A DNA stretch of 64,000 nucleotides. Source: Pseudoruminococcus massiliensis. GTDB taxonomy: Bacteria; Bacillota; Clostridia; Oscillospirales; Acutalibacteraceae. The stretch spans positions 62,001-126,000 of the forward strand of contig NZ_OLMR01000001.1 of assembly GCF_900291955.1 (NCBI RefSeq), written 5' to 3'. This document shows positions 8,833 to 41,208 of this stretch, piece by piece; position 1 is the stretch's first letter; the number at the start of each line of letters is the position of its first letter. The position numbers and the translations under genes are program-made. The notes under the pieces are model-generated. The model had not been told where the DNA came from, made no database searches, and saw nothing but the letters and a program-made list of their open reading frames with translations.

Positions 8833-11800
8833 TTAATTGGACTCACGCCTATAAACATAGTTATTGAATATGCCACCCTTACCAAGTATCGCAATATTGC
8901 TACTATCTTTCACAGCATTATTCATATTCCAAATATACTCAACACCCCAAATTGTACTTGACGTATCTCTCTTTATGACTATTCGGACATTTAAATCTTG
9001 CTTACTGCTGCTGCTGAGAATAAGCTGTTTGCCATCAAAGTCATTCTGAGAATTTTTAAGAGTATTTGCATTGTCCATACTTTGGCTGAAAACTAATACA
9101 TCATAAGTATATCCAGCAGGCAAGTCTACGCTTATATCATAAGCAAAGCTTTTCAGATTATATACATATGGCTCAGATTCACCTGACGAAGTTCCACTTA
9201 GATATTTTGTCTGATAAACATCTACTTCACTACCATTAAGCTCTTTTATAGTTGCAGAAATCATACCATATTTTTCTATAATCTCTTTATACATTGCATC
9301 GCTTTCTTGAAATACCTTTGTCATTTTTGCTTTAAATTCATCTTCACCGCCAAGCTTTTCTATCTCGCCCTCTTGTGCAACTTCGAGCGTTGTACTCTTA
9401 TTTCTTACACCAGGAACAACTGAAACCTTATAAAGGGTTTCGGTTTTGCCATCTTCAGCAATAGACTTATAATATGTCACCGATGGAGAATAGCTATAAT
9501 CTTTGGCTTCCTCATCATACGCATTATAGTTTACTGTAAAAGTATACTGCTTATAATTGTTTTCTATTACATTGCCATCTTCATCATAAACAAGAATTTC
9601 TTCTGCATCAGCACTTTCCCACTTGCTATCACTAAAGCTCGGGTAAGAATCTTCTCCAGAAATCTTTCCTGTGTATTTTTGAAGTTTAGCTTTATAAGGC
9701 ACTCGAAGGGTTATTTTACTCTCTTGTTGGTCTTTCTTAACATATGAAAATACATTAAAGGTATCTACTCGATTATCACCTGTCATAACATTTTCATAGC
9801 CTGTGTAGACAATTTTTCCGCTCTCACTGGCTTTAAGAATGGTTACATCTCTTGAGTCCCCACCTTCTATATTGCTATTTTCAAAGATAAAAGGTGTATA
9901 TTGCTGATTGTTTACCTTAAACTCCGTTATATATGTTTCATCATTAGGGAGATTTTCTATAATGAATGGAACGCTATAAGGAATTGTCCATGTAAAATTA
10001 AGAGCGTCTTTATTTTCAAGATATTCGCCTGTATCATAATCGTAAAGCTTAACCGCAGTATTATTTACAGTTTTATCAGTAAAGTCCATACGATACATAA
10101 AGTATGGAACGATTTTATATGTACCGACCGGTGCATCGTTTTTAAGAATAAATGTCCAAATATTACTATTAGTTACTGATATACCTGTTTCGCCTTTAGA
10201 ATTTTGGAAGTATTTATTTATCTGCTCTGTCGTAAGCTCTGTATAACTATCTGAGGAAATACCTTTGAAATAAATCTTTACTCTGTCAGCAGCATAACCA
10301 CTTCCACTATACTTTGCATCACTATATACAGCATTATCTGTTCTGGCAAGAGAAACATTTGAGCTTCCCCATTGTGCAGTAAAGGTTATATTGCTTGTTT
10401 CGTTTCCGAGAACCTTTGCAACATATGAGCCATCCTCATTTTTATCAAAAATAGTATATCCATTCTTAGTTGCTGTACTTATTGTTACTTTTGGCTCATT
10501 TTGATATGTACCCCATGCAGTACCATCTGCATTTTTACCGTAATCTCCCATATGAATTTGTTCATATGTATATCGGCGAATATCCCCATTTTCTGCCATA
10601 ATATCTGTATGACCTATATATTTTGCAGGATAGTATGCTCCTGTTTTAGTATCATTCTTAACATATATTTTCTCTATAACATTTTCAAGAGTTACAGGCT
10701 TTCCTTTTGGTATTTCGTCAACTTCCTCATCTATTTCTTCTGACTTATTATATATAGGGTTATCAGCATCAACATAGTAAGTAGAAGTTGGATTATTAGC
10801 AATCGAAGATTTCAAACTCATATATGTACCACAATTAGTAGTACTATTAGCTGACTTTGTTGCATCGTTGTCTTTTTTAGTATAGTAATAATATCTGAGT
10901 GGATTTATACCATATGTTGGTCTACCTACAAAAAGTAAACCCTGTTGGTAACCATCAGCAGATTTTCCATATAGCTTATCATATGAAAGAAGGTCTAAAA
11001 CTCTAATTTCAGCTCCCCAGTAACGCGTATATGTAGTTGGGCTCGGATAATATTGAGAGCCTCCTAAACTTATATAACCCCAACCAGTTCCTTGAATGGC
11101 ATTAAGTGGCGAATATTCTTTGCAGAAATATACTGTTGCAAAGTGTTTTTCCGAATCAGAGTTTTTTGTTCGCTCATACATAAGATTAACCTTATATAAG
11201 CCACCATAGAAGCATTCTGAATCGCTTAATACACTATTAAGGTCTATTTCTACCTTACCAGTGCTCTTTTGGTCTTCGTCGTATTCAACCTCGCCAACTT
11301 CAACCTTATATGAAGATTTGTAATGATTAGCATCATCATTCCACTTCAGCTGATTATAGCTGATATTCTCTGCGGAAGGCAATCTATCCTGCCAAAAAAC
11401 GCTCGCCCAGATTTTATCACCCTTGCTCATATTATAAGTTGTAACAGATATTTTAGGATATTTATTACTGCTGCTTGAATAAGACTTATAGCTCTGTATA
11501 TTTTCCCCTTGTAAGCCATTTCCATTTGCATCTTTATAATTATCTGAAACATAATAATAAATTACATCTTGTGCAGGCTTGCTTGGGTCAGTTTTATCCT
11601 TATCTGTGACAGAATCGTGCTTATCAGGGTCAATCTCAAGTCCGCCATTATCCGTTGTGCTTGTAACTATTTTATCTGATGGCGTATCAAGTGATACAGA
11701 ATCAAGTTTTGCATAAGGCTTATACTTATCTATAACAACATGGACAACAACTATATTTTTATGTATTCCATCTTCGGCTGTTATAACTCCAAGAACCTTT

Positions 11801-14800
11801 GTATACATATTGTCAAGGTCATTGTTGGTTCTATATGGTACAGCAATTTCCCACATATCACGGTCAGCAATATCTTCACAAGTATCATTAAATATATACT
11901 TAGCCTCATAACTTGACATCGACTCACTCCACTTTACACTTTCATCTGAAAGCATATCATCGAGATTATCTCCATTAAGCCATAAATTCTTTGGATACGG
12001 GTCAGTATAATGATTCATCTTTTTAAGACGCTTAGTGGTATCTACTGTATCGCCTTGATAGAACTTCATACTTGAATATTGAGATATACGCTCTATATTA
12101 GGAGAAATATATATACATCTATCTGTATCAACATTTTCATAAACAGTATTTCCATTATCGTCTTTTATCGGTTTGCCTGTCTTGGAATCACGCACTTTTC
12201 TACGGGCTAAGGAAGAATCTATATCGTCTATCGACATATAGATGTTTATATCCGTATACTTAATCTTATCGGAATATGTTCCGTCAGAAAGCTGTGCATA
12301 ATGAGTTTCTATATCGCTCAAATAGTTATCAAAGAACTGATAATAGGTTGTATCATTATTTGTATATTCCCACTTTGTCTGCATTTTATATTCGATAAGC
12401 TCATCAAGGCTACTATCTTTAATCTGCTGTGCATAAATATCGAAGTCCTTTTGCAGGGTTCTCTCTGACGGAGAAACCATAGAGGAATATAATGAATTAA
12501 GTTCGTTATCGTTGACGAGAGAGCTGTCAAAGCAAGCTGATTCGCTCTTTTCATCATATTGAACACCAAATTGTATATTATTATAGCTATTCTCAATGCG
12601 ACTTCTTCTTGGCATAAATACACCTACGCTTCTGTACTCATCTATTGCCTTATCCATAATTACATATGCGCCGTTGCTTTTAGCCTCATCGCCAAAGCGA
12701 CTTGTCAAATAAGCCTGCAAATATGGTGAAAGATTATCATAGTCCTGATAAGCCATTGCGTTCCTTTGGTGAGAATCATAGTCTGTAAGCTCATGGATAA
12801 TCTCTTTTCTGAATATGAAGTTATTGCTATAAAGAGCTACTGTATTTTCGGTATCGGTCTTATCGAGAGTCACAAGCTTTAGCTTACATCTGTTTTGGTC
12901 ATTGGAATCATATGCAGCTTTATTTTTGGTATAGAGAGTTAAATTATCATAAACCTTTCCATTATTATTAGAGTATCCACCTATAACAGGATAATTGCTT
13001 ACACCCTCCGGTGCTTCTGAAAGGTCTACCATATTATTAAGATATATAGGTGTGCCATGAACATTTAAGCCAAGAATAGAACCTACATAAATCTTATTAT
13101 TTTTATTATCACCCTTATATCCGACTGTACCATAATTTATACCATTAGTAAGTCTTGGGCCTAAACTGTTTGTATTGTATGGATAGGTATATCCCATTAT
13201 TCCGCCCGCATATAAGCCACCACTCTCAAGATAATTGACGCTTATATTACCGTAGTTTATCATATTGTAGCCTATATATTTTCGAGCATTATCATTCCAG
13301 GAATTATCTAAACCTATAATACCGCCTACATATGTTGCATTACGGTTGCGTTCAGTACCAATTTCTATATCACCATAATTCAAAACCGAGTTTATGTAAT
13401 CAAAGTGGTATAAATTACCTACTATACCACCAATATACATAGTAGTTTTTCTTGTATTATTATTAGTATTATCAGTATTATACGGCTTATCATTATTATA
13501 ATAAAGCTTTCCGAAATTTTCTGACTGCGTTATAGAAGCTGCGTTTAAATATCCAGCAACGCCTCCCATATAAAGAGCTGCACCAGTACCCCAAGAATAT
13601 GATGTTGGATTTGTTACATTGACATTTGCAAAATTATAACAATGGCTTAAAGTGAATTTTGCAACACTGACATATCCCACAATGCCACCAACAAAACCTT
13701 CACCACCACTCTCGTTAATATTTACATCACCATAATTTATGCTATTTGATATAGCTGAAGTTGAAGTAACATACCCAACAATGCCTCCTACACGATATGC
13801 ATCTGCATTTTCTACGGAAATATCAGCATAGTTTACACAATAGTCTGTTTGCCCTCCTATGCTTCTGATTCCACCGATATGAACACACCAGCCAAAGCCT
13901 GAAGCTCCTGAAGATTTACACCACGAGCTTATATACTCTGTGCCATTGACATTAGCTGTATAAAGATTTCTTACTGTGATTTTTCCTCTGTTTTCACTAT
14001 GAATAGCTCTTCCGCTATGTGTTATACCCGATAAATATAAACCAGAATCTTTATATTTTGCATTATTAACGCAATTTTCAACTGTAATAGGTGCAAAATT
14101 TATATTATTCTCACCCGATAAGCCACCGTTAAGATAGACATTATAATTATTAGTTATATAATTAAAGTAGCTGTCTCGGATTGTCATAGGAGCATAATTC
14201 CTTGATTTATAACAAATACTATTGGAAACGGCATAAACAGTTATATTTGAATCCTCAACCATAAGATTAGTAAGATTTATCTCGCCATTATTGATAAGAT
14301 TTTCTGTTTTCTCCGCCTGATAACTATTATATTGATATAATACACCATATACAATTATAGTTTTAGTTTTGCCAGAAATATTTATTTTTCCATATCTGCG
14401 GGATTTATCAAGGCTATTAAAAACTTCGTTCCATTCATCTGACTTCATACCATCTGGAATATAACAGCCATCATACCAACCATTAACTATATTTTTTATC
14501 TTTGATTGTCGGTTAGTGCTATTGTTCATTGTATGATAACCATATATGTTAAGTGTTCCGGTAATCTCTGCGTCTACTGTAACATCTCCGAGATTAAGAT
14601 TATTATTTGCGAAAAGTGCCTGATAGCCAAGTGTACGAATTGTAACCGCACCATTATACTTTCCTTTAACAGTGATATTTCCATAGTTAATATTATTATT
14701 AAAGGTAAATTGGTTCTGATTCTTTTCGTTATAGTCTGCTGTATGATTATAACCTATTCCGGTTATGCCTAAACTTCTTACGCAATCCGGAGCTTCAGTT

Positions 14801-17800
14801 GTATCAACTGTAATATCAACATAGTTGCGGTTATAATTGCAGTTATTATCCCAATTATTATAACCAGCTCTCAGACAGCCTGATATTGAAAGTCGTATCA
14901 TTTTATTAGTATCTTTTTTATTTGGAATAAAGTTTATTTTTCCATAGCTTGAATTATACGAACCCAAACCATTAGAATACATTGAAATATAAGGGAAATG
15001 GCCTTCCGAAGTAAGGTTTGATGTACCATAAATAGGGTCGAAATTATTCTTATCAAGGTCAACGGTCAGCTTACCTATATTTGTAGTATGCTCTGCAAAA
15101 AACATAGAAGTTCCAATAACACCTATATATGCAGCAGCATTTGTATCAGTAGAAGTGTACCAATAGGTAGAATTACTGTTGCACCGCTCACGATTTGTTG
15201 GTGCAATATAAACATCACCTGCATTATAGGAATATTCTGTACTCATACCGCAGATGCCTACAAAACATCCGCCATTATCTATTCCTATGCTATTATTTCC
15301 GTTAGTAAAAATAGTTCCTCCATAAAAATAGATGTTACCGCAGTTATAAGATTTATAAGTATATCCCTGTGCTATACCATAAATACCAATACCACCATCA
15401 TACATATAGAAATTACCCTTATTATAGTTTCTATAATTATAATATTGACCGTTCTTTGTACCTTTAGAACTACTCATATAGCCTATACCGCTCATAAGAC
15501 ACTTATTTATTGCAACGGAATAGAAATTGCCTTCATTATATGAATTACAAATAATATTATAGCCTATTCCCCACATATTCGACCTTGCTTTGGAATCATT
15601 GTTTACCAAGCGTTTGCCTTTAGGAAGTGCTTCGGCTGTTGGCTTGCCGTTTTCATCATATATAACCTCGCCTGTAAGCTCATTTTTAAGAACCGGAACA
15701 TCATATATATTTCCGAAATTGGCAATTCTATCTCCACGAGCAGAATCATTTATATTTATTGCAGGCTTAGAACCATTTTCTGTAGTTAAGCTAGTAACAC
15801 TACTTCCTACTTGATTTGTTGTAATACCTGCTGTATTAAAGCTGCCGTTTATTAATTTCCAATCGTTGCTTTCATCGGTTATCATATATGCACCATAAAC
15901 ATTACCATAGTTAGCAACATGGGTAAGCTTTCCATAGTATCCCCATTGCGTACTGCCTCCTGTACCTGCAGCACCAAGCAAACCACCTACACGAACATTA
16001 TAACTAAAAATATTCGGTACCATTTCTAATGCACCGCCGATAATATCTCCGCTATTGGTACAGTCTGTTATAAAATGGTATGCTCCTCCACCGATAAGTC
16101 CACCTATCGCTGTAGAACGCTGTGAGCCTGTTCCAAGCTTAACAGTTGCTGAAGAATGAACATTTTCCATATCAATATCGTTTGAATGTGCAACAACTGT
16201 TGCACTTCTTACATTTAAAGAGTTGTCTGTGTTTGTGGTTGGCATACCATCAGCATCACCACTTGAAATTTCACCACCAACAAAAGATAGGTCTTTAACA
16301 CAAGAATTATACTGAATATTTTTATTACTGGTAGATTGTGCTATAAGAGCAGTAAATTTATTACTTTTACTATAGCTATTTGTTGTTGTGGCTGGTGTAT
16401 TTATTGTAAGATTAAGGATTATATGAGTATCTCTCAGTTTTTCGCCATTGCTGTCGTTTCCGAGTGATGAAGTATGATGAATAGGACAATTTTCATCGCC
16501 ATCATCGGCTGTACCTATAAGCTTGCCATAAAAAGATGCATTTGTTGAAGTGACTGTCCAGTTAATCCAACGCCCACTTGCTACATAATTTGATGTCACT
16601 GTTATATCAAGCTTTGGTTTATAGGCATTTGGAGCAACTTCATTCATATCTATACATCTATCTATTTTAAAATAATATGCCTGTGTATACTCATATGAAC
16701 AAGGGAAGTGAATAAGCTGTGCAGGAGTAGAAATTATCAATGGGTCACTCTCTGTACCCATACCAATAAAACCATAGATTCGTGGATAAGTCCAATCATA
16801 AGTGTTTCTACCAGTTCTGGTAGTTTTATTATTAAGTGGTTTAAATTCTGTGCCTGTAACGCCATTAAGAGTTTTAAGTTGGAAATTTGTGCGAGGTATG
16901 ATATTCTCTTCATCGGGATTATCAATTTGATTAGGAGTTGTACCAACCTTGAATATATCACTATCATAGTAGCAGTTTGATATAGTACCACTATTATTAG
17001 GGCATACTGGATTTTGCACAATTGGTTCACGAGCATCGAGCATACCTGCAAAATATGAATCTGCAATTTTACCGCTTGCATAGTTTATCGCAACAAGTCC
17101 ACCAGCGGTGGAGTTTGCTGATTTTACAACATTGACATTTGCAATAGCACCTTTTTCTGGCTGAACTTCTTGAGCAATAGCGTATACATCTTCAATATTA
17201 CCATAATTTCTTGAGGCAATTACAGCAGTAAAGGTTGCCGCACTATTTGTAGAATCTATTGTAGGGTGATATATGCCGAAATTCCTTACAACCGCATTAG
17301 CACCAACAACGCCAAAAAATCCTACTGTTACAGGCGTATATTCTGTATCAAAATAAAGGTCACGAATCTCAAAGCCCTGACCATCAAATGTACCAGTAAA
17401 TGGGTTTCCATCTCCGCCTATTGGCAAAAAATATCTTTCATTATAGCTGACCTCGGAATATTCAATATTATCACCAAGTACAATATTTGCAGAAAGATAG
17501 AATTTAACTTCTGATGGGGACGAACCTTTTCCATTTACAATCTGCGAATAGAGATATAATTCCTCTGCATTGCAAATCATCAGCTTATAGTCCTGTGACA
17601 TATAGTTCTGTGCTGTACCATTATTAAAAAGCAATGCCTCACCTACTATCTCACGAAAATCCGTAAGAGATATTCGCTTAGGCTCAGTATAGCCTGTTTG
17701 CTCTTTATATTTGATATAAGTAGGCAATGGAGAAATAGCATCTGAACCATCATAAAGCTCATTCATATATTGATATGCTGGAGCATTATTATCTGCTGCA

Positions 17801-17928
17801 CTTGCAAAAGCAGGTGCAAACAAGCCGAAAAATCCTGAAAGCATATCACTTGGAATAAGTCCTCCAACTATTAAAATTACCAATGCAAATGAAATTACTC
17901 TCTTTTTCTTTGTATTTTTAAATTTCAT
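8833..17928 (-). CDS. Giant secreted beta-helix (GLUG-like) surface protein
   Basis: This 3031-aa protein has a basic N-terminus, a hydrophobic segment (residues 12-45) and a probable signal peptidase I site at AFASAAD. Residues about 100-1650 are Asn/Gly/Tyr-rich and carry many GLUG-like units such as IGGIVGYVT, VGGIIGL, AGGIMGYT and MGGVAGYL, each followed by an N-YGD/NYGNI strand; this is a right-handed beta-helix pattern. Around 2480-2520 is a segment ending ITFTAQW, resembling the InlB B-repeat/Listeria-Bacteroides repeat. The C-terminus (VYRRESN) has no LPxTG motif or membrane anchor. It heads an operon with two SipW-type proteins, diverges from sipW/tasA-like genes, and starts at ATG with AAGGAGG upstream. 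It is probably an adhesin or matrix protein. Confidence 0.85.
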   Translation of the reverse strand: MKFKNTKKKRVISFALVILIVGGLIPSDMLSGFFGLFAPAFASAADNNAPAYQYMNELYDGSDAISPLPTYIKYKEQTGYTEPKRISLTDFREIVGEALLFNNGTAQNYMSQDYKLMICNAEELYLYSQIVNGKGSSPSEVKFYLSANIVLGDNIEYSEVSYNERYFLPIGGDGNPFTGTFDGQGFEIRDLYFDTEYTPVTVGFFGVVGANAVVRNFGIYHPTIDSTNSAATFTAVIASRNYGNIEDVYAIAQEVQPEKGAIANVNVVKSANSTAGGLVAINYASGKIADSYFAGMLDAREPIVQNPVCPNNSGTISNCYYDSDIFKVGTTPNQIDNPDEENIIPRTNFQLKTLNGVTGTEFKPLNNKTTRTGRNTYDWTYPRIYGFIGMGTESDPLIISTPAQLIHFPCSYEYTQAYYFKIDRCIDMNEVAPNAYKPKLDITVTSNYVASGRWINWTVTSTNASFYGKLIGTADDGDENCPIHHTSSLGNDSNGEKLRDTHIILNLTINTPATTTNSYSKSNKFTALIAQSTSNKNIQYNSCVKDLSFVGGEISSGDADGMPTTNTDNSLNVRSATVVAHSNDIDMENVHSSATVKLGTGSQRSTAIGGLIGGGAYHFITDCTNSGDIIGGALEMVPNIFSYNVRVGGLLGAAGTGGSTQWGYYGKLTHVANYGNVYGAYMITDESNDWKLINGSFNTAGITTNQVGSSVTSLTTENGSKPAININDSARGDRIANFGNIYDVPVLKNELTGEVIYDENGKPTAEALPKGKRLVNNDSKARSNMWGIGYNIICNSYNEGNFYSVAINKCLMSGIGYMSSSKGTKNGQYYNYRNYNKGNFYMYDGGIGIYGIAQGYTYKSYNCGNIYFYGGTIFTNGNNSIGIDNGGCFVGICGMSTEYSYNAGDVYIAPTNRERCNSNSTYWYTSTDTNAAAYIGVIGTSMFFAEHTTNIGKLTVDLDKNNFDPIYGTSNLTSEGHFPYISMYSNGLGSYNSSYGKINFIPNKKDTNKMIRLSISGCLRAGYNNWDNNCNYNRNYVDITVDTTEAPDCVRSLGITGIGYNHTADYNEKNQNQFTFNNNINYGNITVKGKYNGAVTIRTLGYQALFANNNLNLGDVTVDAEITGTLNIYGYHTMNNSTNRQSKIKNIVNGWYDGCYIPDGMKSDEWNEVFNSLDKSRRYGKINISGKTKTIIVYGVLYQYNSYQAEKTENLINNGEINLTNLMVEDSNITVYAVSNSICYKSRNYAPMTIRDSYFNYITNNYNVYLNGGLSGENNINFAPITVENCVNNAKYKDSGLYLSGITHSGRAIHSENRGKITVRNLYTANVNGTEYISSWCKSSGASGFGWCVHIGGIRSIGGQTDYCVNYADISVENADAYRVGGIVGYVTSTSAISNSINYGDVNINESGGEGFVGGIVGYVSVAKFTLSHCYNFANVNVTNPTSYSWGTGAALYMGGVAGYLNAASITQSENFGKLYYNNDKPYNTDNTNNNTRKTTMYIGGIVGNLYHFDYINSVLNYGDIEIGTERNRNATYVGGIIGLDNSWNDNARKYIGYNMINYGNISVNYLESGGLYAGGIMGYTYPYNTNSLGPRLTNGINYGTVGYKGDNKNNKIYVGSILGLNVHGTPIYLNNMVDLSEAPEGVSNYPVIGGYSNNNGKVYDNLTLYTKNKAAYDSNDQNRCKLKLVTLDKTDTENTVALYSNNFIFRKEIIHELTDYDSHQRNAMAYQDYDNLSPYLQAYLTSRFGDEAKSNGAYVIMDKAIDEYRSVGVFMPRRSRIENSYNNIQFGVQYDEKSESACFDSSLVNDNELNSLYSSMVSPSERTLQKDFDIYAQQIKDSSLDELIEYKMQTKWEYTNNDTTYYQFFDNYLSDIETHYAQLSDGTYSDKIKYTDINIYMSIDDIDSSLARRKVRDSKTGKPIKDDNGNTVYENVDTDRCIYISPNIERISQYSSMKFYQGDTVDTTKRLKKMNHYTDPYPKNLWLNGDNLDDMLSDESVKWSESMSSYEAKYIFNDTCEDIADRDMWEIAVPYRTNNDLDNMYTKVLGVITAEDGIHKNIVVVHVVIDKYKPYAKLDSVSLDTPSDKIVTSTTDNGGLEIDPDKHDSVTDKDKTDPSKPAQDVIYYYVSDNYKDANGNGLQGENIQSYKSYSSSSNKYPKISVTTYNMSKGDKIWASVFWQDRLPSAENISYNQLKWNDDANHYKSSYKVEVGEVEYDEDQKSTGKVEIDLNSVLSDSECFYGGLYKVNLMYERTKNSDSEKHFATVYFCKEYSPLNAIQGTGWGYISLGGSQYYPSPTTYTRYWGAEIRVLDLLSYDKLYGKSADGYQQGLLFVGRPTYGINPLRYYYYTKKDNDATKSANSTTNCGTYMSLKSSIANNPTSTYYVDADNPIYNKSEEIDEEVDEIPKGKPVTLENVIEKIYVKNDTKTGAYYPAKYIGHTDIMAENGDIRRYTYEQIHMGDYGKNADGTAWGTYQNEPKVTISTATKNGYTIFDKNEDGSYVAKVLGNETSNITFTAQWGSSNVSLARTDNAVYSDAKYSGSGYAADRVKIYFKGISSDSYTELTTEQINKYFQNSKGETGISVTNSNIWTFILKNDAPVGTYKIVPYFMYRMDFTDKTVNNTAVKLYDYDTGEYLENKDALNFTWTIPYSVPFIIENLPNDETYITEFKVNNQQYTPFIFENSNIEGGDSRDVTILKASESGKIVYTGYENVMTGDNRVDTFNVFSYVKKDQQESKITLRVPYKAKLQKYTGKISGEDSYPSFSDSKWESADAEEILVYDEDGNVIENNYKQYTFTVNYNAYDEEAKDYSYSPSVTYYKSIAEDGKTETLYKVSVVPGVRNKSTTLEVAQEGEIEKLGGEDEFKAKMTKVFQESDAMYKEIIEKYGMISATIKELNGSEVDVYQTKYLSGTSSGESEPYVYNLKSFAYDISVDLPAGYTYDVLVFSQSMDNANTLKNSQNDFDGKQLILSSSSKQDLNVRIVIKRDTSSTIWGVEYIWNMNNAVKDSSNIAILGKGGIFNNYVYRRESN

Positions 17929-36388: not shown

Positions 36389-36604
36389 TTATTTTTCATA
36401 TGGCGGTGTATATTGAATTATCTCACGATATGATTCAAGTTCTTTCTCATCCTGTGCTGCAAAAGGAATAAGCCCTGTACAATCTGTTGTACTTGGAACA
36501 GGATTAAATTGTTTTAAAGCTTCTTCACGAGCCTCTGTTTCTTTATCATTAGGATAATGTTTTGCCTTGTTTAAATCAACCTTATTAATATTTTTACTAT
36601 CCAT
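36389..36604 (-). CDS. Small charged protein of unknown function
   Basis: This 71-aa hydrophilic protein is rich in Lys/Glu and begins MDSKNINKVDLNKAKHYP; the middle contains PVPSTTDCTGLIPFAAQDE. AAGGGGGA precedes the ATG by 6 bases. It sits 63 bp downstream of mazF and upstream of the 162-aa unknown gene. It lies after the toxin gene and has no ribbon-helix-helix or AbrB-like pattern, so it is not an obvious antitoxin. Confidence 0.6.
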   Translation of the reverse strand: MDSKNINKVDLNKAKHYPNDKETEAREEALKQFNPVPSTTDCTGLIPFAAQDEKELESYREIIQYTPPYEK

Positions 36605-36667
36605 AAAAATCCCCCTTAAAAGTATTCCTAAATATTTTAAATCGAAATTCTACGATTACATATTATT

Positions 36668-37033
36668 TTATGTAATCGAATTGTGTTCAACACCCAAACC
36701 AAAACTAATAGAAAGTGCCTCATCGACCTTTCCCATTTCGCCGAGGTCGAGAGAACCCATACGCTCTTTTAATCTGCGTTTATCTATTGTACGAATCTGT
36801 TCAAGAAGCACAACAGAATCTTTAGCAAGACCGCTTTCATTAGCCATAAGACGAATATGAGTTGGCAGATTTGCTTTAGTGCTTCGGCTTGTGATAGCCG
36901 CAGCAATTACAGTTGGACTATATCTGTTGCCGATGTCATTCTGAATAATCAAAACAGGTCTTACGCCACCCTGTTCAGAGCCTACAACAGGGCTTAAATC
37001 CGCATAATATATATCTCCTCGTTTAATATTCAC
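36668..37033 (-). CDS. ndoA: MazF/NdoA-type mRNA interferase
   Basis: This 121-aa toxin-family RNase resembles Bacillus NdoA over its whole length: [20 protein letters not shown](V)RPV at the N-terminus with the catalytic Arg region, [14 protein letters not shown] near 48, and [16 protein letters not shown] near 70. GTG at 37033 is chosen because GGAG is 10 bases away; a GTG at 37042 is too close to it. In Bacillus the antitoxin NdoAI is encoded just upstream, but here the 220 bases upstream up to rlmI contain no such gene. Confidence 0.92.
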
Positions 37034-37208
37034 AGCTTTCACTCTCCGAAATTTTATTTTGTGCCGGCAATATTATTCTTGTCCGATTTTCAGAAAAATA
37101 AACATAATAATCCAGCACATTAACATAATATTCTTGCAAAAGCCAAGTGACACCTTATAATATTTTGATAATAAATATAAAAATTTATTACATAAAAAGA
37201 TTTAAAAT

Positions 37209-38492: not shown

Positions 38493-38787
38493 ATTATTTC
38501 TCCATTCCCATAATAATTTAAATTTAAATATTACCTATTGAAACAAACAATATAATTTTAACATTTAAACTCTAAACTTTCAATAAAAAGCGTAATCAAT
38601 AAAAAATATAATATTTATTTGATATAATTCCTCTAAACAGATTGAAATTTTCAGACCTTTTAGTTAAAATGTAAATAGTATAAAAATAATTAAGCATGAC
38701 TTTTAAATAGCTTTTTATTTTTAAAATTTTATTAGCTATACATATGATTAAATCTATATAAAATATGTATAACTTGGAGGTTTTATT
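38493..38787. other. Divergent A+T-rich intergenic region
   Basis: About 295 bases separate rlmI and the sigma-LRR fusion gene. It has long A/T runs but no clear sigma-A promoter for either side. No obvious ECF-type GGAAC motif was seen, so autoregulation by the fusion protein is neither supported nor excluded. Confidence 0.45.
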
Positions 38788-41208
38788 ATGAATAACTACT
38801 TTTCAAGATATGTTCATAGTGCTTTAATGGGTGACAAAACCGCATATGAAACACTTTATAATCTTACTAAAGACGCTCTATTTTTTGCAATACTAAATAT
38901 AACTAAAAATGAACAAGAAGCAATAAGCATCATGAAAGAGAGCTATACAAACGCATTTGAAAATTTAACTTCTCTTAAAAAAGCAGAAATCTTTGATGTA
39001 TGGCTAAACAGAATTGCCTCATATTCTGCTTATATATCTATCACAGAAAAAAATCCAGATGCTTTTAATAATGTTGCTGAAAAATTTGAATGGAATGATG
39101 AAGATAATTTCGACCAACTTCCACAAGAAACCATAGACGATAAGGACACACGAAATGTTGTGAAAGGAATAATCGAAAATTTGCCTGATGACCAACGACT
39201 TCTTATCATAATGCACTACTATCAGGAAATGTCTTTATCTGCAATCGTTTCAACATTAGATTTGCCAGAAAACACAGTAATGTGCATACTCTCATATGCA
39301 AGAGAGGGAATAAAAAAAGAAATTGCAAAAGCTGAATCAGAAGGCAGATTAATGCGTTCAGTATCTCTCGGTGCAGTTCCCTTTACACTTATGGAATTAG
39401 CAAAATCTCAATTTTTATTTCACCCTGCACCACCTATGAGCAGTATTATTACACCACCTACAAATGCAGAACCTATCATTGAAGAAAAAAATGATATACA
39501 AGCAATTTTAAATATTCCATCTCCTGACGCATCCAAAGAACAAGCACAAGAAACAAAAATTACTGAGCAAGTCCAAGAACCAGTTCAGCAAGAGTATGCA
39601 AACCCTTATGAGCAAGCACAACAACCAGTTCAGCAAGAATATGCAAACCCTTATGAACAAGCACAACAACCAGTTCAGCAAGAGTATTCAAACCCTTATG
39701 AGCAAGCACAACAACCAGTTCAGCAAGAATATGCAAACCCTTATGAGCAAGCACAACAACCAGTTCAGCAAGAATATGCAAACCCTTATGAACAAGCACA
39801 ACAGCCAGTTCAGCAAGAATATGCAAACCCTTATGAGCAAGCACAACAACCAGTTCAGCAAGAATATGCAAACCCTTATGAACAAGCACAACAGCCAGTT
39901 CAGCAAGAATACGCAAACCCTTATGAACAAGCACAACAGCCTGTTCAGCAAGAAACAGTTGTAGAGCAGTCTCAGAATGTTCAAGAAGTTTCAGAACAAC
40001 CATCAAATAATATTCCTAAAAAGCCACAATCATACCAGCGTGTGGTAGAAGCTAATTTTAGTATAGATAACGCCACAAAGCAAAAGAATAAAAAAACAGA
40101 CAAGCAAAATTCTTCTCTTTCAAAAATCGGAAATTTCTTTAAATCAACTGCGGGCATAGCTACAATCATAGGAGTAGCTTTTGTTGTTATTGCTGGAGTA
40201 GTTATATTTTCTATGCTTGATGTCGCAAAAAAGAACAGTCTTTCAACAGATGGTATTATTGAAAGTTCAGTCGATATTAATGCATCATCAGATTCAGAAA
40301 GTTCTCACGAACCTACCGCCGAAGAACTTCGTGCTGCAGAACTTAAAGAAGATGAAAAAAATTATGTCTATAAAGAGTATCAAAACGATACATTACACAT
40401 AGTCGGATATAAGGGCAAGCTTGAGGATTTAGTAATACCAGAGAAATATTCAAATAAAGTTATAACTGGAATCGACCCTATGGCATTTTCAGGCTGTTCA
40501 CAAATTAAAAGTGTAACTATATCTAAAAATATTCAATCAATATCTCTTAATAACAGAAGCTGCAATATGAATCCTTTCTATGATTGCATTTATATGAAAA
40601 ATATATATGTTGATGAAGATAATCGTTACTTTACTTCTGTTGATGGTGTATTGTATAATAAATCTAAAACTGAACTTCTTTTCTACCCATCTTATAAATC
40701 AGATTCATCATATACTATACTTGATAGTGTAACGAAAATTGAAGTTGGTGCTTTCCAAAGAAATGGTATAGTTACAGAAGTAATACTTCCAAAGAATATC
40801 AAAACTATTTCTAAAGAGGCTTTTCTTGAATGTACATCACTTCAAAAAATAGAAATTCCTTCAGGTATTACAGAAATCAGTGAATCACTATTTTTAGGTT
40901 GTAAATCTCTAAATGATATAACACTTCCAAATACTATTAAAGAGATAAAATCCAATGCTTTTTATAAATGCAGCGGTCTTAGAAAAATCACACTTCCAGA
41001 AAGTGTAGAAACACTCAATTTTCTTGCCTTTGGTGATTGCACAATGCTTAATACCTGTACTATAGAAAACAGTAATATGAAATTTAAAAGTTCATATGAT
41101 AAGAATGAATCCATCTTCCCTAATACTCAGGTTACACTAAGAGCTAAAAAAGGTTCTACAACTGAAGCATATGCTAAAAAGTGGAAAATGTATTTTTCTT
41201 ATATATAA
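38788..41208 (+). CDS. ECF sigma-factor-like / transmembrane / LRR fusion protein
   Basis: This 806-aa protein has four parts. Residues about 8-80 look like sigma region 2 (ALMGDKTAYETLYNLTKDAL...AFENL...FDVWLNRIASY) and 128-180 like region 4 (LPDDQRLLIIMHYYQEMSLS...TVMCILSYAREGIKKEI). Residues 265-384 are eight copies of a 15-residue Pro/Gln/Tyr repeat (PVQQEYANPYEQAQQ). Residues about 454-475 are a membrane segment with basic residues before it, so the N-terminus is inside. Residues about 540-770 are an outside BspA-type LRR_5 domain (AFSGCSQIKSVTIS, AFLECTSLQKIEIP, AFYKCSGLRKITLP). It could bind RNA polymerase while tethered to the membrane; that is inference. GGAGG precedes ATG. Confidence 0.85.
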   Translation: MNNYFSRYVHSALMGDKTAYETLYNLTKDALFFAILNITKNEQEAISIMKESYTNAFENLTSLKKAEIFDVWLNRIASYSAYISITEKNPDAFNNVAEKFEWNDEDNFDQLPQETIDDKDTRNVVKGIIENLPDDQRLLIIMHYYQEMSLSAIVSTLDLPENTVMCILSYAREGIKKEIAKAESEGRLMRSVSLGAVPFTLMELAKSQFLFHPAPPMSSIITPPTNAEPIIEEKNDIQAILNIPSPDASKEQAQETKITEQVQEPVQQEYANPYEQAQQPVQQEYANPYEQAQQPVQQEYSNPYEQAQQPVQQEYANPYEQAQQPVQQEYANPYEQAQQPVQQEYANPYEQAQQPVQQEYANPYEQAQQPVQQEYANPYEQAQQPVQQETVVEQSQNVQEVSEQPSNNIPKKPQSYQRVVEANFSIDNATKQKNKKTDKQNSSLSKIGNFFKSTAGIATIIGVAFVVIAGVVIFSMLDVAKKNSLSTDGIIESSVDINASSDSESSHEPTAEELRAAELKEDEKNYVYKEYQNDTLHIVGYKGKLEDLVIPEKYSNKVITGIDPMAFSGCSQIKSVTISKNIQSISLNNRSCNMNPFYDCIYMKNIYVDEDNRYFTSVDGVLYNKSKTELLFYPSYKSDSSYTILDSVTKIEVGAFQRNGIVTEVILPKNIKTISKEAFLECTSLQKIEIPSGITEISESLFLGCKSLNDITLPNTIKEIKSNAFYKCSGLRKITLPESVETLNFLAFGDCTMLNTCTIENSNMKFKSSYDKNESIFPNTQVTLRAKKGSTTEAYAKKWKMYFSYI
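39580..39939 (+). repeat. Eight 45-bp tandem repeats
   Basis: Eight full in-frame units of 45 bp, beginning CCAGTTCAGCAAGA(A/G)TA, encode PVQQEYANPYEQAQQ (unit 3 has Ser for Ala). A partial ninth unit starts at 39940. The units differ at only a few third-position bases, so the array is young or kept uniform. Because unit length is a multiple of three, long open frames also appear on the minus strand; these are not genes. Confidence 0.97.

Follow-up and report, generated by a model that had tools for sequence, protein, structure and literature searches.

A gene of Pseudoruminococcus massiliensis in the 64,000-nucleotide stretch of DNA analysed here (the window) encodes a protein of 806 residues that joins a sigma-factor-like domain to a membrane helix and an extracytoplasmic LRR domain. 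On balance, we regard this protein as a membrane receptor whose sigma domain was turned into a protein-binding module, and whose ancestors belonged to a family in which sigma factors are tethered to the membrane. The gene and its parts, with positions in the window, are as follows.

38788..41208, + strand: whole gene; 806 aa, with ECF-sigma-like domain, tail, repeat linker, transmembrane (TM) segment and BspA-type LRR domain
38776..38780, + strand: ribosome-binding site GGAGG, recognized from sequence; start codon at 38788
38788..39057, + strand: sigma region-2 fold, residues 1-90; fold predicted, hallmark contact residues replaced
39142..39339, + strand: sigma region-4 fold, residues 119-184, from Pfam and fold prediction; recognition helix TVMCILSYARE
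39340..39429, + strand: tail following region 4, residues 185-214 (...LMRSVSLGAVPFTLMELAKSQFLFHPA); family motif LEKxGTxLYxxAPIPF
39564..39954, + strand: 45-bp tandem repeat with eight full 15-aa units EYANPYEQAQQPVQQ; disordered cytoplasmic linker
40153..40209, + strand: single transmembrane helix, residues 456-474, from hydropathy; N-in/C-out predicted
40210..40347, + strand: Ser/acidic extracytoplasmic stalk, residues 475-520, from sequence
40348..41205, + strand: extracytoplasmic BspA-type LRR domain (Pfam LRR_5; best stretch residues 649-769)

The open reading frame (38788-41208, + strand) is intact and opens with ATG. A methyltransferase gene lies 296 bp away on the opposite strand, and a nitroreductase gene follows 73 bp downstream on the same strand, with UvrA beyond it. 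Because the gene and its order with the methyltransferase are common to both other species of the genus, an assembly artefact was ruled out. The intergenic block 38621-38690 (TATAATTCC..AGATTGAA..TTTAGTTAAAATG), between the divergent methyltransferase and sigma-LRR genes, is kept in all three species and is a candidate promoter for one of these genes or both. Elsewhere in the window, positions 8833-17928 (- strand) encode a 3031-aa protein rich in Asn, Ser, Gly and Tyr, with a signal-like segment at its N-terminus and no Pfam match, which is predicted to be a giant secreted protein. A MazF/PemK-like toxin gene (124 aa, PF02452) occupies 36389-37042 (- strand); no Pfam match of antitoxin type was found among its scanned neighbours.

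A preliminary description of the DNA had read the gene product as a single-chain ECF-type protein with a repeat stalk, a TM helix and an LRR domain, and Pfam, NCBIfam, AlphaFold2 and hydropathy all agreed with that architecture. Residues 1-182 matched the NCBIfam SigW model with E=4e-22, under that model's cut-off, and their best PDB sequence match was SigW (5wuq, E=2.7e-14). In Pfam searches with the 806-aa protein, LRR_5 gave E=1.5e-30, whereas region 4 passed barely (25.9 bits vs a cut-off of 25.7) and region 2 was not detected. The marginal region-4 match and the undetected region 2 are a hint that the sigma domain has diverged. AlphaFold2, run on the protein with 57 family sequences, predicted, with good confidence (pLDDT 85.9, pTM 0.84), sigma2 and sigma4 folds connected by a short linker. 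The predicted fold was closest in the PDB to SigW in its closed, RsiW-bound form, so that Bacillus subtilis SigW is the nearest solved relative in both sequence and fold.

The Lys-rich N-side and the acidic, Ser-rich C-side of the TM helix suggest an N-in/C-out topology, which would place the sigma domain in the cytoplasm and the LRR domain outside. The repeat between them consists of 8.7 copies of the 45-bp unit (94% match). The sister species has 12 units instead of 8 and the linker of the third species is non-repetitive, and for this reason linker length or disorder, rather than sequence, seems to be what matters.

The preliminary description had called the architecture uncommon, a view that did not hold: a survey of relatives found about 90 single-chain sigma-membrane fusions in gut Clostridia and Erysipelotrichales. 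Species-representative genomes were scanned with an eight-sequence alignment, which gave 80 loci with 95 related ORFs, 87 of them >320 aa and only 5 complete ORFs of ordinary sigma length. Among 68 aligned full proteins, Pfam region 4 was present in all and region 2 in 64; 17 carried LRR_5, and single members bore CAP, NlpC/P60, Ig-like or other domains, the ectodomains differing widely. A hydrophobic segment past the sigma part occurred in 68/68, typically a Lys followed by an Ala/Gly-rich helix. The motif LEKxGTxLYxxAPIPF stands directly after region 4 in nearly all members and was not seen in the aligned soluble ECFs. The window protein shares these traits: ECF fold, tail motif, a single Gly/Ala-rich TM segment and an ectodomain in one chain. 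The hosts belong to Oscillospiraceae, Lachnospiraceae, Erysipelotrichaceae and related groups and include isolates.

In a phylogenetic tree 72 of 73 tethered sequences grouped together, apart from the soluble ECFs, with an SH-aLRT value of only 81 (moderate). The window protein paired with L053 (SH-aLRT 97) and then with 14 further fusions (SH-aLRT 94). In a class-wide draw most strong sigma-profile matches in Clostridia were ordinary ECFs of about 200 aa, which makes the fusions a minority clade. None of five members checked had a named NCBIfam family, and a literature search found no paper on this clostridial group; since the 2021 ECF re-classification, which may list it, lay outside that search, the novelty of the group is provisional. 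At L056, L057, L061 and L062, which come from rabbit-gut Clostridia MAGs, two or three tethered-sigma genes stand in tandem; their sigma parts are conserved and their ectodomains differ, a pattern that suggests local amplification and ectodomain swapping. An extra CxxC pair precedes the sigma domain in L073, L081, L082, L084, L094, L099, L101, L114, L127 and L130, and Pfam Zn_Ribbon_1 was detected in 7 of the 68 aligned proteins.

The window protein departs from this family at the residues by which a sigma factor contacts DNA and polymerase. The region-2 positions D47, Q50, N79, D83 and K/R86 (SigW numbering), whose presumed roles in core binding and -10 recognition are taken from sigma70 and sigmaE rather than from a structure of this family, are S, K, Y, I and T here. 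In region 4, the -35 contacts of SigW are K170, T171, R172, H174 and R175 (PMC6713349), which align with M165, C166, I167, S169 and Y170, so that the window protein lacks the contacts that SigW bears. In most relatives, the residues that correspond to SigW K170, T171 and R172 are still K, S/T and R. The family-wide frequencies are 95% for D47, 98% for Q50, 95% for N79 and 100% for the recognition-helix K165, where the window protein has S, K, Y and M; K165 occurs in 66/66 other aligned members and is replaced here and in the sister species.

On a score of eight contact positions, picked after the alignment was seen, the window protein and its sister both had 0/8, the second tethered copy in the same genome and its ortholog 1 each, two relatives from other genera 1-2, and the third species of the genus 3. 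Scores of 5-8/8 were found in 66 of 73 tethered members and in the soluble controls. These values do not favour the earlier proposal that the window protein acts as a sigma factor. The possibility that the contacts would be missing from all homologues is contradicted by most relatives, but applies to the window lineage. A less biased check covered the 23 alignment columns in which the family consensus reaches 85% or more. In 7 of these the consensus residue is D, E, N, Q, K or R, and the window protein retains just 1 of them; of the other 16 it retains 14. By this alignment, the sigma fold is retained and the contact surface is not. To our knowledge, a conserved sigma domain stripped of its contacts is unusual.

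Selection was estimated from one species pair per gene, at dS values of 0.3-1.0. Between the window protein and its sister, dN/dS was 0.13 (0.07-0.22) for the sigma part and 0.26 (0.18-0.38) for the LRR part, and dN was lower in the sigma part in 1000 of 1000 bootstraps. In the second copy the values were 0.057 (0.02-0.11) for the sigma part vs 0.47 (0.31-0.73) for the ectodomain. The sister species matches residues 183-214 at every position (100% identity), and no part of the window protein is better conserved than its N-terminal domain and tail. The second copy (L002:436-2052, - strand, on G000:C12 of the same genome) is a 538-aa protein with an ECF-like domain, a TM segment and LRR-like repeats; its sigma domain is still more diverged (branch length 4.4) yet 93.5% identical between species.

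The loss of the contact residues from a domain that is nevertheless strongly conserved led us to propose that the window protein signals via a protein partner. The same may have happened more than once. It is conceivable, though we hold it only tentatively, that several lineages independently made the sigma fold into a conserved 'ex-sigma' signalling module without the usual promoter and core binding. Candidates are the window gene with its sister, the second tethered copy that P. massiliensis carries, and L039 and L040 from two other genera.

The main alternative, which we consider rather unlikely, is that the window protein is a working sigma factor of altered promoter specificity, tethered to the membrane and freed by regulated intramembrane proteolysis upon sensing by the LRR domain. 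The sigma2 and sigma4 folds are intact and under purifying selection, and most family members keep the contacts. Loss of SigW-type contacts is no proof that DNA binding was lost; recognition may have shifted instead, since K-Y-Y replaces K-S-R in relatives from the same clade. The same genome also contains a gene for an M50 site-2-type protease, and proteolytic release of the sigma part of the window protein is plausible. The genomic context of the family also fits. For many members, the next gene downstream encodes a secreted surface protein; many of the downstream products have a signal peptide or lipoprotein signal at the N-terminus, and their genes lie within about 100 bp on the same strand. 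Among 32 scanned downstream genes, LRR_5 was found in 12 and Big_3 in 5, and such LRR or Ig-like surface genes are expected there if a tethered sigma controls surface-protein genes. An ECF-like pattern, AAAAC-N15-17-CGTCT, occurred upstream of four members (L080, L081, L091, L100; 0.12-0.19 expected), but it was chosen after the matches were seen and most members lack it. Out of sample it was found only in L086 and L088, at sites almost identical to that of L091, and we consider it weak as a shared family promoter. Against a working sigma in the window lineage stand the score of 0/8 and the replacement of the otherwise invariant K165; moreover, the window gene has no co-directional surface-protein gene adjoining it, with nitroreductase downstream instead.

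A decoy role is still less probable. Here the sigma-like domain would keep a partner, either anti-sigma-like or polymerase, at the membrane and thereby regulate a separate soluble ECF. The closed SigW/RsiW-like arrangement in the model would agree with this, and the true effectors could be among the other sigma region-4 proteins of the same genome, some of which are ECF-like frames of about 190 aa. The AlphaFold2 model contains a tail helix at residues 196-211. However, the TM-score to SigW was 0.76 with the tail and 0.75 in a truncated control without it, and the tail raised only the model confidence in the sigma2-sigma4 linker. Since the truncated control closes equally, the closed fold is not creditable to the tail and is not specific evidence for a decoy; the idea that the tail serves as a built-in anti-sigma was dropped on the same grounds. 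A cognate partner gene was not found nearby either. That a surface LRR protein kept a non-functional N-terminus as its anchor, which would make the sigma-like domain a relic, is highly improbable. All contact residues are lost and the repeat linker is variable and recently amplified (8 vs 12 units), but a relic would drift, and the purifying selection on the sigma part of both copies indicates a functional domain, so that a relic or pseudogene was rejected.

Fusions of a sigma factor and a membrane segment in one chain are already known, but with anti-sigma domains that the window protein lacks. The fused groups ECF52 (SCO4117), ECF48 and ECF53 of Actinobacteria combine an ECF sigma with one or more C-terminal TM segments, and ECF52 also has a proline-rich extracytoplasmic region as well as a carbohydrate-binding domain; regulation of these sigma factors by proteolysis was proposed (PMC8999054). 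The window protein resembles them in its C-terminal TM segment (456-474) that tethers the sigma domain, and differs in its tail motif, LRR ectodomain and Clostridia host. Ahead of the membrane these groups have a zinc-finger anti-sigma-type domain, whereas the window protein contains no CxxC anywhere and no Pfam zinc-finger match. In IutY (ECF243) of Pseudomonas putida, according to a review the sole experimentally characterised fused case, the sigma carries an inhibitory C-terminus bound to the membrane, and proteolysis via Prc and RseP activates it (PMC8999054). This C-terminus is a FecR-like anti-sigma of siderophore cell-surface signalling; Pfam detected no FecR domain in the window protein. 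The IutY type has a TonB-dependent receptor as partner, and the neighbours of the window gene include no receptor. SigW and RsiW, unlike the window protein, are two separate proteins. BspA-type LRR surface proteins share the ectodomain family (LRR_5), but in the window protein a TM helix anchors the LRR and connects it to a sigma fold in the cytoplasm.

Canonical ECF/anti-sigma pairs have an adjoining anti-sigma gene. As had been noted in the preliminary description, none is present among the neighbours of the window gene (methyltransferase, nitroreductase, UvrA). No zinc anti-sigma was found among 129 neighbour genes of the family, which held one chance HxxxCxxC in an opposite-strand gene.

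Taken on their sequences, the members that retain the contacts are most likely tethered, signal-released sigma factors. The ectodomain, an LRR in the window protein, would sense a surface signal outside the cell, and cleavage or engagement of either the ectodomain or the membrane segment would free or unmask the sigma part. The sigma would then transcribe the gene that encodes it and the surface-protein genes nearby. Such a release would parallel that of IutY, where it was shown, and of ECF52, where it was proposed (PMC8999054). For the window lineage we favour a receptor with the same wiring that has lost the promoter contacts and the presumed core-polymerase grip residues, in which the sigma fold and tail would pass the signal on by binding a partner and would not start transcription.

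ECF signalling is usually described as relying on a sigma factor and a separate anti-sigma. This gut-bacterial family appears to dispense with the anti-sigma partner, since a single chain includes the sensor, the anchor and the sigma. Its ectodomains appear interchangeable and the nearby surface-protein genes are candidate targets. Members occur in cultured bacteria (Lachnoanaerobaculum orale DSM 24553, Blautia sp.), which makes the release mechanism directly testable. The window lineage poses a question that is rarely raised, namely what role a sigma fold may serve after promoter recognition is lost while selection on it continues.
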